From Serratia sp. FDAARGOS_506 (GTDB lineage Bacteria; Pseudomonadota; Gammaproteobacteria; Enterobacterales; Enterobacteriaceae): a DNA stretch of 64,000 nucleotides. Position 1 is the first letter of the stretch, and each line of letters starts with the position of its first letter. The notes below the pieces were generated by a model. It saw nothing but the letters and a program-made list of their open reading frames with translations. It was not told where the DNA came from and searched no databases. The position numbers and the translations under genes are program-made. This document shows, in pieces, positions 35,517-39,211 of the stretch. The stretch covers positions 4,092,001 to 4,156,000 of the forward strand of contig NZ_CP033831.1 of NCBI RefSeq assembly GCF_003812745.1, given 5' to 3'.

Positions 35517-35813
35517 ATGCTTTATCTGATCTACGCGCAAGACGCCCCCAACTCACTGGAAAACCGTCTGGCGGTGCGCCCGGCACACCTGGCGCGCCTG
35601 CAGGCGCTGCGCGACGCCGGCCGCCTGGTGGTCGCCGGCCCTAACCCGGCCATCGACAGCAACGAACCCGGCACCGCCGGCTTTACCGGTTCGACGGTGA
35701 TCGCCGAATTCGAGTCGCTGGCGGAAGCCCAGGCCTGGGCGCAGCAGGACCCTTATATCGCCGCCGGGGTCTATGCCGACGTGACGGTGAAGCCGTTCAA
35801 GCAGGTGTTCTGA
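35517..35813 (+). CDS. yciI: YciI family protein
   Basis: The 98-residue protein matches E. coli YciI (ferredoxin-like fold, YCII domain): [40 protein letters not shown] and [20 protein letters not shown]. The histidine in RPAHL and the Asp of QQDPY are the family's candidate active-site pair. Function is unknown. AAAGG precedes the start. It marks the left edge of a variable slot that ends at yciY. Confidence 0.93.
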
Positions 35814-36161
35814 CACGCGGCAGGTTTCAATCCCGGGAGCGGCACGCCGTTCCCGGTCAAGGCATGATCTCGCCCTAACGCAGCGTGCAGGTCACCGCGC
35901 ACCGAACGAAGACACTGTCGCCGTCAAACGGCTGCTATTCGGCACCAGTTTTACATCCTAGCCGGTCAAACTGTACAAACCACGGTGAACTACATCCGGC
36001 GTTCGGAGTTGTAGGACGAAGAAACGAACGCCATTTTGACACGCGATGTGGCAACGCGGGTTGGGTTAAGTGCGAACTGAAGATCTGTCCTTAATTCAGT
36101 AAGGCACAAAAGGCTTCATTACGTTAGCCGGCGACACCCGCATCAAGCACAGGACGTCAAG
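35814..36161. other. Non-coding stretch between yciI and the tailspike-like gene
   Basis: No gene is supported here. A hairpin (CGGGAGCGGC paired with GCCGTTCCCG, about 35838-35859) follows yciI and may end its transcript, though no T-run follows. The rest shows no promoter or repeat that I can defend; it marks the left edge of the accessory insertion. Confidence 0.45.
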
Positions 36162-36195
36162 GCCGCACATTCCATGCAGTAACGAAATGTGCGGC
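36162..36195 (-). terminator. Stem-loop after the tailspike-like gene
   Basis: A 10-bp perfect stem GCCGCACATT/AATGTGCGGC with a 14-nt loop lies about 33 nt beyond the stop codon. There is no clear T-run, so it may stabilise the 3' end rather than terminate. Confidence 0.45.
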
Positions 36196-36227
36196 ATGTC
36201 ATGCTCGATTAATGCAGGGTACTCGCG

Positions 36228-38114
36228 TCAGACCTGTCGCAGGTAAACATCCGTAATGCGCAGATCAAAGTTACTTTTCATTTCAGTGACGTCAATAAGC
36301 AAGAAAGCGTGCGTAGCCCAGTCCGGCGCTCGCTCGAAGGCGGGCGGCTGCGTAGGATAACCCTGCATTTGGCCTGGGATGATAACGTTTTTCAAATCAG
36401 ATTCATTGCCGCTAAATTGATAAGTGTAAACGTGACCGGTTTCCTGCTTGAGAATTTGGGGTTCAACGTCTTGTTGTGGACCATATTCGCGCAGCTTCGC
36501 CCATAGAATTTTGACTTGGCAGCGTTGCCCATCACCCGCGTAAGTGTTGGCGCGAACATGGTGAATAACGCTGCCGTAACCTTTCAGGCTGACGGTTCCC
36601 AGCACCGCCTGGAACACACCATTACCAGCGGCCGCGTTGCGCCCCAATGAAACAAAATCGGCCTGGCGAATAAGGCTGAAATTGGTGCTGTTAGTCGTAC
36701 CCCACCCGTAGCGAGATTTGCGTACCGTATTAACACCTCCCGGCGGCAGAACCCAAACTTCCTCAGCCCATTTGTCGCTACCGTTGCTATACGTCGTGCC
36801 ATCCAGCCAATTGTCCTGTACGGTTGTATCGGTTCGCACCTGAGTTAACAGATAAGGCCAAGAGATAGGCAATTGCGTATTACGTAGAGAGACAGAACCC
36901 GTGCCATCAATCCAACCACTGACGTTGGCGTCACCACCTTGTTGCATCTGACCGATATTGACCTTATCAAATACCACTCGCGCCAAATTACCCACATAGA
37001 ATGGGTTAGAGGTTGTCGGATAGGCCGTCGGGCTACCGCCGGCTTTGAAGGTAAAAAGACCGCCGATAATGTTGACTTTGCAAAGTTTAGCATCCGGAAT
37101 GTTCAGGATGTAATTTTGTGGGCCATAGCCTTCAACGTGACAATCGCGGAAAATATGTTGTCCACCCTCGATATGCATATACTTTCCGACATGGCTGGAG
37201 GAGGTTTGCGGCCCGTTCTTACCGTAAATGTAATCAAAGGAACAGTTTAAAAAATAGCTGTAGCCCCCCTGTAATTTCACACCGCAATTGCTCTGAGCGA
37301 AAATGCAGCTGTGGAAATTCATCTCTTCACCGGAATTGGAAGTATTGTCGGGGAAGTAATAGCAAATGTCACAGTGATTGAAACTAAAGCCATACATGCG
37401 CAGGAAGTAAAAATCGGTAGTGCCGGTTATGCCATACGCAAAACCTTCGATCCCACCGCCGATAAAGGTCAGCGAATTGCGACCATAGTTAGCCGAGAGC
37501 GAAGTAGAAAACGTCATGCCATCGACAAATGAATTGGCGCCAGGGCCAATCATACGCAAATTTTTCACGCTGAGATTGCCCTGGGTATAACCGGCGTTGT
37601 TTTGCCATTGAATCGCGATTTTACGTTCGGTGGCGTTGCCCTGTGTCATGGCGCTAAAATCCAGCAAGGCGCCGGAGAAATCGTAATCGACGGTTTTCAA
37701 ATCCAGCTTCAGCGTTTCCGTACATTTAAACTGCCCGCTCCCGAACTGCAGATTCCCGTTTTTCAATACGCGTGAACCGCTGGATACCGCCTGCGAGCTG
37801 GCATAATCGTGAGCGGCTTGAATGGCAGCGGCGTCCTCTGAAATACCGTCACCTTTCGCACCGAACATATAAGGCGACACCGTACCGGCAACGTCCAGGA
37901 CGCGCACCCACAACCAAGCGGCGTTGGGACGGATGAACATCCCGCCATCATCCATCGGTGTCGATTGTGCTTTGGCGACGAAGATACCGCCGCCGACGGG
38001 CTGACGATTGCTGGCATTCCAATCGCCGTAGTATGCGGTCACGGCGATCAATTCACCGACTGCGCCAGGAAGAGTGTTTCGTAACGTAGCGATATCAGGG
38101 CAAGTATTCATCAT
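36228..38114 (-). CDS. Orphan phage-tailspike-like beta-helix protein (pectate-lyase superfamily)
   Basis: The 628-residue protein has the hallmark PYMFGAKGDGISEDAAAIQA (residues 81-100) that opens the right-handed beta-helix of phage tailspikes and polysaccharide depolymerases (Pectate_lyase_3 type). The helix runs through repeats such as NSLTFIGGGIEGFAYGI, MNFHSCIFAQSNCGVKLQGG and YFLNCSFDYIYG. Before it, residues 1-80 (LRNTLPGAVGELIAVTAYYG, GGGIFVAK) look like the adaptor found in front of many spikes. After it, a trimerisation or binding tail ends FLLIDVTEMKSNFDLRITDV. There is no signal peptide, no membrane segment and no phage gene nearby. A LexA box overlaps its promoter. Base composition is visibly more AT-rich than in flanking genes. 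Substrate is unknown; catalysis is inferred. Confidence 0.8.
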   Translation of the reverse strand: MMNTCPDIATLRNTLPGAVGELIAVTAYYGDWNASNRQPVGGGIFVAKAQSTPMDDGGMFIRPNAAWLWVRVLDVAGTVSPYMFGAKGDGISEDAAAIQAAHDYASSQAVSSGSRVLKNGNLQFGSGQFKCTETLKLDLKTVDYDFSGALLDFSAMTQGNATERKIAIQWQNNAGYTQGNLSVKNLRMIGPGANSFVDGMTFSTSLSANYGRNSLTFIGGGIEGFAYGITGTTDFYFLRMYGFSFNHCDICYYFPDNTSNSGEEMNFHSCIFAQSNCGVKLQGGYSYFLNCSFDYIYGKNGPQTSSSHVGKYMHIEGGQHIFRDCHVEGYGPQNYILNIPDAKLCKVNIIGGLFTFKAGGSPTAYPTTSNPFYVGNLARVVFDKVNIGQMQQGGDANVSGWIDGTGSVSLRNTQLPISWPYLLTQVRTDTTVQDNWLDGTTYSNGSDKWAEEVWVLPPGGVNTVRKSRYGWGTTNSTNFSLIRQADFVSLGRNAAAGNGVFQAVLGTVSLKGYGSVIHHVRANTYAGDGQRCQVKILWAKLREYGPQQDVEPQILKQETGHVYTYQFSGNESDLKNVIIPGQMQGYPTQPPAFERAPDWATHAFLLIDVTEMKSNFDLRITDVYLRQV

Positions 38115-38130
38115 ATTATCCTCACAGGGT

Positions 38131-38150
38131 TACTGTATTTATATACAGCC
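38131..38150. promoter_or_regulatory. LexA (SOS) box upstream of the tailspike-like gene
   Basis: TACTGTATTTATATACAGCC matches the enterobacterial SOS consensus (TACTG, five TA steps, CAGTA) at 17 of 20 positions. The invariant CTG-N10-CAG core and the CTGT/ACAG arms are intact. It ends 17 bp before the ATG at 38114, overlaps the -10 of the predicted promoter, and no plus-strand gene is there to claim it. Confidence 0.85.
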
Positions 38151-38165
38151 ATGTAACTCTATGAA
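38138..38165 (-). promoter_or_regulatory. Predicted sigma-70 promoter of the tailspike-like gene
   Basis: On the minus strand TTCATA (38165-38160) and TATAAA (38143-38138) are separated by 16 bp. The -10 lies within the LexA box. A short leader with GAGGAT 5 nt before the ATG completes a compact expression signal. Confidence 0.55.
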
Positions 38166-38286
38166 CGAATGAACCATGCATCAATATCGGGAGTGTTGTT
38201 CTATTGCCCACCGAACATACTGGTCTATTGGATGTAACGCCTCCTTCTGCTACTTTTATCCCCCATACAAAGGCAGAGAAATGCCG

Positions 38287-38400
38287 TTACACGACGAGTT
38301 TTCCCCGCACCACCACCTTGCCCGGTTTTATCTCGGGACCGGCAATACGGCGGTTCGCCAGATTCAACGCTTGCCAGGCGGTTGAGGTAGGAAGGCTGGA
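38287..38400 (-). pseudogene. Possible C-terminal remnant of a LacI-type regulator
   Basis: The minus-strand frame ends AWQALNLANRRIAGPEIKPG then KVVVRGKLVV and a stop. This resembles the last helix and strand of LacI/PurR-type effector domains (A-x-L-L-x-R-I-x-G...V-x-x-x-L-V-V). Nothing upstream in the same or another frame extends the match. A plus-strand frame over the same bases (ending FPWTVDTAENAQQLLDARK) is an equally short alternative. The stretch 38166-38558 is otherwise without a gene. Confidence 0.25.
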
Positions 38401-38558
38401 GCAGATGACGTTGGAAATGACCGATAAAATGATCGCCTCAGCGTTGTTTCCGTGGACCGTCGACACTGCAGAAAATGCCCAGCAACTGTTGGACGCACGC
38501 AAGTAATGACCGGTGCCCATGCACTCAGGGGGCCTTTAGTCCGAAGCTTGTTGCAGAC

Positions 38559-38588
38559 AAAAAAAAGCCAGCACGGAGTAGCTGGCTA
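38559..38588 (-). terminator. Terminator of the TetR-family gene
   Basis: A 7-bp stem AGCCAGC/GCTGGCT is followed on the minus strand by a run of eight T, about 60 nt after the stop codon of the regulator. Confidence 0.82.
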
Positions 38589-38647
38589 AAAAGTTCTTCG
38601 AGGGAATATCTTGTGCGATAAACATACGCCTTTCGCCGCACGCTTTA

Positions 38648-39211
38648 CTAGCTATCAGTGCGATAGGCGCTGCCCGTTAAAATCAACGCCTGCATATCGG
38701 TGAACATCGTTTCCCATTCCGCCTGGTCGATATCCATCAAACCAAAGTAACGCAGCATAAAGGCGCCTTCGGTGGCGAGAAACGCCAGGCGCGCGCGTTT
38801 GCCTTCTTCGGTCGACAAATCCAAACCGGCGATACGGCTGCGGTACCATTCGCGCGTGCTCGCCAGATGTTCCGGCGTTTGAATCAGCGTCGCCATCAGC
38901 CCGGCGGCCTTGGCGCTGGAGGTCTGATCCGAACTGTGGGTGGCCAGCATATGCGCCCGCACGGCGGTCTGCGGCGAAGGAGCGTCGCCGGCGATCGCCG
39001 TAAACAGCGTCTCATAGGCGCTACCCCAGCGATCGAACATGGCATCGATAAGGGCGTCTTTGCTGCCGAAGCAATACTGCACCCCGCCCTTGGAGATCCC
39101 CATCGCTTTGGCGACGGCGTCGATGGTCAAACCGGCGGCGCCCTGGGTGGCGACGATCTCCTCGGCGGTGTCCAAAACCTTGTCGCGATCGATGCTGCGT
39201 TGACGTCCCAT
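38648..39211 (-). CDS. TetR-family repressor divergent from an efflux pump
   Basis: The 187-residue protein has the TetR N-terminal helix-turn-helix (about residues 24-45, LTIDAVAKAMGISKGGVQYC) followed by FGSKDALIDAMFDRW. The remainder is an all-helical ligand domain. It is divergent from the MFS gene at 39338 with a palindromic operator candidate between them, the arrangement of SmvR-SmvA pairs in Enterobacterales, where the repressor controls a biocide pump. Inducer unknown. Confidence 0.88.
   Translation of the reverse strand: MGRQRSIDRDKVLDTAEEIVATQGAAGLTIDAVAKAMGISKGGVQYCFGSKDALIDAMFDRWGSAYETLFTAIAGDAPSPQTAVRAHMLATHSSDQTSSAKAAGLMATLIQTPEHLASTREWYRSRIAGLDLSTEEGKRARLAFLATEGAFMLRYFGLMDIDQAEWETMFTDMQALILTGSAYRTDS

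Follow-up and report, generated by a model that had tools for sequence, protein, structure and literature searches.

Why should a Serratia chromosome carry, standing alone, a gene for a phage-type tailspike behind a binding site for the SOS repressor LexA? The question is raised by a stretch of 64,000 nucleotides (nt) of Serratia sp. FDAARGOS_506 (contig NZ_CP033831.1, positions 4,092,001 to 4,156,000; hereafter the window), in which a reading from the letters alone (the sequence-only reading) had drawn attention to a spike gene of this kind. Our best reading, to which we give a probability of roughly 0.6, is that the gene codes for a glycan depolymerase descended from a phage tailspike, which would be induced by the SOS response and the activator NucC and be freed by NucED lysis. 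The gene and its control region are given below in window positions.

36228 to 38114, minus strand: predicted solo gene for a tailspike-like glycan depolymerase, an intact open reading frame (ORF) of 628 amino acids with its ATG at 38114 or 38111
38120 to 38123, minus strand: ribosome-binding site GAGG, letters checked, invariant in an alignment of seven upstream regions
38131 to 38150, no strand assigned: LexA box TACTGTATTTATATACAGCC, 17 of 20 positions as in the consensus, CTG-N10-CAG intact
38158 to 38163, minus strand: -10-like CATAGA flanked by the activator site and the LexA box, unchanged in all 7 upstream regions of the alignment, its putative role taken from the geometry of the P2 promoter pP
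38195 to 38214, plus strand: predicted activator site GTTGTTCTATTGCCCACCGA of the P2 Ogr/NucC type, in the P2 pP orientation relative to the gene, 14.0 bits

The LexA box and its conservation

LexA boxes are scored here as the number of the 20 positions that agree with the LexA consensus. A box of 17/20 with intact core in front of a 628-residue spike gene had been claimed and was confirmed; it is the sole match with three or fewer mismatches in the 64-kb window, with none found in 100 shuffles and 0 expected. Two adjacent ATGs open the ORF, with an in-frame stop shortly before them, and 16 bases separate the end of the box from the first ATG. Elsewhere in this genome the boxes of recA (16), recN (15), lexA (14 and 14), dinB (16), ftsK (15) and yebG (17) score at or below that of the spike gene and those of sulA, umuD, nucE and nucA (18 each) above it, the gene names being assigned from translations. 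Since the scores within one genome thus run from 14 to 18, the spike box is as good as those of standard SOS genes. The pattern CTGT-N8-ACAG occurs at 37 places of the whole genome on one strand reading, the spike's included, and the reversed pattern at 23; 21 of the other 36 places were inspected, in 20 chosen stretches, mostly with AT-rich spacers. Two AT-rich palindromes of the CTGT-N8-ACAG form also lie on a 44 kb second contig (L001 and L002, at G000:C1:1872 and 37408).

Some match to the spike protein was found in 19 of the 30 genomes of the genus, at 25 places. Full-length Serratia orthologs are present at seven of these including the window's own, the other six being 71-98% identical. 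When the box was looked for upstream of homologues, as the sequence-only reading had proposed, it was found with intact core in all seven (15-19/20, at -36 to -46). It scores 18/20 in an eighth ortholog, a copy on the viral contig L144, and 15-16/20 in L017 and L018, whose N-terminus is divergent. Among the non-Serratia homologs, whose starts were assigned by script, L070 has a box of 17/20, but 278 nt upstream, and L069 one of 14/20 at -47. The ratio of nonsynonymous to synonymous substitution rates (dN/dS) is 0.035-0.110 in 11 of the 21 pairs of full-length orthologs, and synonymous sites are saturated in the other 10. By these values the spike gene is under purifying selection, with conserved regulatory blocks. 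Control of the gene by LexA is supported by the box and its conservation in the orthologs, though with synonymous saturation in 10 of the 21 pairs.

The spike ortholog of the viral contig, 79% identical, is preceded at a distance of some 420 nt by an integrase gene (L144:2397-5893). We considered L144 as a prophage-borne copy and dropped this; because its upstream region is nearly that of the chromosomal L009, it looks like the edge of a prophage beside a host spike gene.

The box had also been described as close to the start codon, which holds, and as lying over the -10, which may not be so. CATAGA precedes the box core by 9 nt and has the spacing expected of the -10 in an Ogr-type promoter, so that the box may overlie the transcription start instead.

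A predicted Ogr-type activator site

Fourteen spikes which share their head, with or without a LexA box, have ACAAC about 80-120 nt upstream (12 loci) or GTTGT (L017 and L018). The annotated activator sites of the P2 record show the same half-site GTTGT, in both orientations, and for this reason sigma-54 and CRP readings of the conserved GGCACAAC, considered by eye, were rejected. The corresponding sites of PSP3 and of a Yersinia phage are GTTGTGCCATC and GTTGTGCCAGC. We built a position weight matrix from 9 phage sites only and compared the scores with a background of 2100 windows of 300 nt and with dinucleotide shuffles. For the spike gene of the window this gave p = 0.0076 per 300-nt window against the background and p = 0.002 by shuffling. 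Over the fourteen spikes p ranged from 0.001 to 0.18 against the background and from 0.001 to 0.17 against the shuffles, and was below 0.05 in 11 of 14 with either. Such a site is carried by four unlinked spike clades, of which two lack a LexA box, and combining the clade medians gives Fisher p = 4e-7. In clade E (L020-L026), which was left out of the statistics, GTTGTG is found 109-174 nt upstream in six of the seven loci, the six that were measured, and in some it sits within a hairpin-like repeat. The 24 non-Serratia homolog loci with locus ids have no Ogr-type site at p<0.1, with starts assigned by script that may be wrong.

When seven upstream regions are aligned (window, L006, L008-L011, L144), no differences are seen in ACAAC, in CATAGA, in parts of the LexA box or in the ribosome site, the first three standing as invariant blocks amid diverged DNA. 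In the window 31 nt separate ACAAC and CATAGA. From the end of ACAAC to the expected transcription start we count about 43-45 nt in L005-L008, L011 and L013 and 45 nt in P2 pP (counted by hand, with the -10 set by eye). The spike gene thus appears to carry an Ogr-type site at promoter distance in a genome with an Ogr-family activator, and we infer that NucC binds there. The strict pattern GTTGTGCCAKC occurs at six places in this genome (reversed control 2), of which five are inside ORFs and one lies between a chitinase and chiW; the spike's own site is not among them.

The nucEDC cassette

A candidate activator is encoded in the same genome. A LexA box of 18/20 stands before a 73-residue HP1-type holin, a phage lysozyme and an Ogr_Delta protein (assigned with Pfam), a cassette which we take to be the nucEDC operon of S. 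marcescens. As in the nucEDC/nuclease/bacteriocin 28b regulon of that species, both nucEDC and the nuclease gene have LexA boxes here; what differs is the payload of the spike gene, a predicted glycan depolymerase in place of a nuclease or pore-former, and the Ogr-type site of nucA, which is weaker. That a nuclease bacteriocin of S. marcescens is regulated by SOS is noted in PMC3717176 with reference to Guynn et al. 1998. The gene nucC is found at 84-100% identity in 26 of the 30 genus genomes.

As one model, release had been ascribed to lysis from a resident prophage or tailocin, and this part of the reading had to be changed. A search of the genome for the families PF04984, PF04860 and PF03237 gave no match to the tail sheath (PF04984) and a sole portal match (PF04860) which contains two stops and adjoins one terminase match (PF03237), whereas nucEDC is present. 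On these sequence matches the SOS-boxed lysis cassette is the likely release route, not a resident prophage or tailocin. The broken portal and the terminase match lie in a likely prophage remnant (G000:C2:3104300-3106603; L221, L222), with a second Ogr-like match nearby.

Other genes with the two sites

Colicin-family genes were found at 12 places in 11 of the 30 genomes (L209-L220), and none in the genome of the window. They split into five with an intact-core LexA box (13-17/20) and seven without a box and with Ogr-like scores of 12.8-18.7 bits. Among the boxed five the Ogr-type site has p<0.01 in three and 0.079 in one, and is missing in one (0.79). Of the seven, six with ORFs of 449-493 residues score 12.8-13.3 bits and are presumably 28b-like, a label given by size; L219 scores 18.7 bits. 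For nucA, the LexA box is kept at 17-19/20 in 26 of 26 orthologs. An ACAAC in nucA was tried as NucC site and rejected since it is not conserved there, and the claim for nucA was reduced. In 18 tests for both sites at the LexA boxes of 16 stretches of this genome, values below 0.03 were obtained for nucA (0.004) and sulA (0.023) only; five clade-A spikes gave 0.001-0.032. The sequence-only reading had seen in the LexA box the pattern of a single gene controlled like a colicin, and a bacteriocin-like control of the spike gene is supported by the predicted Ogr-type and LexA sites that it has in common with some Serratia colicin-like genes. The likeness to colicins is one of a LexA-type operator before a solo effector gene and of an expected release by lysis. 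Unlike with colicins, no toxin domain or immunity gene was found with the spike, and the lysis genes would act in trans.

The chiW gene, whose product is a holin by Pfam and which we take to be the holin gene of a chitinase-release cassette, has GTTGTG 149-152 nt upstream in 25 of 26 Serratia genomes and GTTGTA in L186 (L138:1034-1501, L179-L204). It may be a NucC target, and by these Ogr-type sites the chitinase-release cassette could be a further part of the same SOS/NucC programme.

The spike protein

With Pfam no match above the cut-off was obtained for the spike protein. PHROGs matched families of exopolysaccharide (EPS) depolymerases and of tailspikes, with most of the matches falling in the first 134 residues. 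The spike of Serratia phage Moabite aligns over the whole protein with 33.7% identity and the Spe5P4/MyoSmar tailspikes with about 34%; in these phage spikes coverage is all or 88% of the protein. A profile of 8 spike sequences (A5), searched against solved structures, matches the tail spike gp1 (23sh) and the K2-2 and K2-VCL6 tailspikes of Klebsiella phages (8iq5, 8iq9, 8iqe; PMC10936425) with E values of 4e-12 to 1e-13, the similarity covering positions 10-397 (10-337 for 8iq9). The following parts of the protein could be assigned.

37785 to 38099, minus strand: neck-type N-terminal domain, about residues 6-110, matching WceF (6tgf, 171-263 and 176-268) and the start of the K2 tailspikes
37326 to 37328, minus strand: codon of Glu263, equivalent of the catalytic Glu267 of K2-2, by alignment to position 267 of chain 23sh
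37131 to 37133, minus strand: codon of Glu328, equivalent of the catalytic Glu323 of K2-2, by alignment to position 323 of chain 23sh

The numbering of 23sh was taken to be that of the K2-2 paper because the positions fit. According to that paper, Glu267 and Glu323 are catalytic and their alanine mutants lost all activity (PMC10936425). Both glutamates are invariant in A5, and the third carboxylate of K2-2, Asp278, is by eye apparently not conserved. The prediction of a phage-type spike cutting a polysaccharide thus gains from the profile match to solved tailspikes with both catalytic Glu aligned; on beta-helix homology and these carboxylates the protein is likely to be a tailspike that cuts polysaccharide. 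Unlike the chromosomal spike gene, these tailspikes are phage-encoded and are not known to be under bacterial SOS control, and that of K2-2 is specific for the K2 capsule. The neck domain is common to spikes whose bodies gave no match in the ortholog search of the genus.

Compared with three phage relatives the protein starts late. Moabite has 113 residues ahead of the position that pairs with residue 1. Spe5P4 has 152 ahead of the position that pairs with residue 74, a net surplus of about 79, and the P22-like prophage spike in L152 has 137 ahead of the position that pairs with residue 9, a net surplus of about 129. The spike of the window does not have this additional N-terminal segment. The phage copies are thus similar in the body and longer at the N-terminus, and virion genes surround the Spe5P4 copy. 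No signal peptide, Tat (twin-arginine translocation) or other, was seen by eye.

The chromosomal site

The spike gene lies between two context genes.

35517 to 35813, plus strand: yciI, left border of the spike site
38648 to 39211, minus strand: TetR regulator, bordering the site on the right in the window and L032-L035 but not in L030 and L031

This position between yciI and tetR is found for five of the seven full-length orthologs (window and L032-L035); L030 and L031 adjoin yciI and have other genes on the far side. Within the site (window 35814-38647) the spike of the window, L030 and L031 points the opposite way from that of L032-L035, and no inverted repeats able to flip the gene were found. 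In L030 a further ORF separates yciI from the spike (L030:6153-7103); by eye, no more than a trace of it seems to survive in the window. The GC content is 0.507 in the spike gene and 0.569 in the window.

It had been claimed that no lysis, immunity or phage structural gene adjoins the spike gene, and Pfam detected none among the 10 neighbour proteins of the window. Pfam on the spike and its neighbours likewise gave neither an adjacent immunity gene nor a killing or toxin domain, the marks of the colicin type, and the neighbour proteins checked showed no EPS cluster around the gene. PHROGs was applied to 53 flank proteins, hand-picked from the window and 12 other spike loci, and 26 families were matched. 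Of these 25 were listed, none with a head, portal or tail description, 15 without any description and one, with a single member, an 'Rz-like spanin'. Other solo spikes (L043:8113-10499 and L044:4980-7297) adjoin, by eye, flippase-like and other polysaccharide-type genes.

Weighing the readings

If our best reading is right, LexA would sit over the spike transcription start, and NucC, the Ogr-family activator from the LexA-boxed nucEDC, would be needed for strong expression. DNA damage would lead to removal of LexA, nucEDC would be made and NucC would activate the spike gene. NucE and NucD would then lyse the producer, and the enzyme would be freed together with the nuclease and, in strains having them, the colicin-like bacteriocins. 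Its target outside the cell would be a polysaccharide of a surface or matrix, probably one made by Serratia or close kin since most of the full-length phage relatives among the matches listed infect Serratia.

Several observations speak against this reading. A box of at least 15/20 stands at just 9 of the 25 genus places, and the other 16 are without. The Ogr-type motif was first noticed by eye in the spike upstream regions themselves, so that its p values do not come from a blind test. By shuffling the Ogr scores are weak in L009 (0.058), L011 (0.17) and L015 (0.094), L019, L027, L028 and L029 have no such site (p 0.15-0.87), and tonB, one of 12 control promoters of the window, reached p = 0.003. 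The spacing in L009 and L010 is about 11 nt longer. L017 and L018 have the site in another orientation and geometry, and they failed the two-site spacing test (0.95 and 0.58) because their site is closer to the box, a test in which sulA scored 0.023. For nucA the Ogr score is below 0.05 in just 13 of 26 orthologs. A LexA box (17-20/20) was found upstream of nucC in 18 of the 26 genomes, with the holin ORF located after the box in 11 and the box 115-200 nt before nucC in 7; 8 gave none. For the activation of the extracellular nuclease and bacteriocin 28b by NucC in S. marcescens no open paper was found. Finally, the reading is built on sequence, from which NucC binding, induction, release, activity, substrate and ecological role are predicted.

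A serious rival, which we hold to be possible rather than probable, is a self-directed remodelling of the matrix without any role as a weapon, a glycosidase of the WceF kind trimming the cell's own EPS so that SOS-damaged populations loosen or leave the biofilm. WceF of Pantoea stewartii (6tgf; PMC7949094) is a bacterial, trimeric, tailspike-like beta-helix hydrolase of its own EPS, encoded on the chromosome as the spike is and with a neck homologous to that of the spike. The location of L043 and L044 beside flippase-like genes fits such a role, as do the many phage relatives that infect Serratia. However, WceF carries a Tat signal as well as a head domain like that of P22, and its gene is located in an EPS cluster (PMC7949094), whereas no signal or head was seen in the spike, which stands alone between yciI and tetR with predicted LexA and Ogr-type sites, a two-site control common to some colicin-like genes.

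The sequence-only reading had also allowed that the spike decorates particles; made under SOS, it would serve a resident prophage or tailocin as an alternative protein for receptor binding. The phage-type spike and a LexA control that would coincide with prophage induction agree with this. PMC10936425 regards the corresponding N-terminal domain of K2-2 as putatively particle-binding, so that the neck left in the spike may still attach to particles and the lost extra segment need not mean a free protein, which again counts against our best reading. Decoration is nevertheless weakened because Moabite, Spe5P4 and L152 exceed the spike by about 113, 79 and 129 residues at the N-terminus. Moreover the genome has no PF04984 sheath and only the portal match with stops, and solo spikes with the same head stand at unlinked sites where the families described for the tested flanks include none of head, portal or tail. 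We consider decoration unlikely. Hardly credible, in our view, is a remnant of a prophage that has no function today and owes its box to former phage control: the phage ancestry of the protein, the low GC content and the patchy presence would suit it, but the ORF is intact in seven orthologs beside yciI, dN/dS is at most 0.110 where it can be estimated, and the regulatory blocks are conserved. Since the orthologs are intact at a shared site and dN/dS is low, we rejected a decaying piece of prophage, and the seven intact full-length orthologs likewise rule against the degraded fragment without intact relatives that had been named as a possible outcome.

We found no prior report of a LexA-controlled Serratia tailspike or depolymerase in the open-access literature, most subscription papers being outside the scope of the search. 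The parts are of known kinds and, as far as the searches go, their combination is new. What appears to be new here is a predicted Ogr-type site upstream of the -10-like CATAGA and the LexA box, with a matching activator in nucEDC.

What the spike gene may mean for Serratia

We tentatively propose, as a wider and more doubtful idea than the reading of the single gene, that the spikes form an SOS/NucC-controlled, lysis-released kit of phage-derived depolymerases, which have their neck in common but interchangeable bodies and would act alongside the nuclease and colicin-like bacteriocins. The burst would dissolve polysaccharide and DNA and so clear the way for bacteriocins or for surviving kin. 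The upstream regions described here would offer a defined promoter set on which the NucC regulon can be tested directly. If our best reading is true, SOS-triggered altruistic lysis in Serratia frees carbohydrate-cutting enzymes besides toxins, which would tie the SOS response to the control of capsule and biofilm. Solo spikes with a common neck and unrelated bodies would then show bacteria using the receptor-binding parts of phages as exchangeable, released tools.

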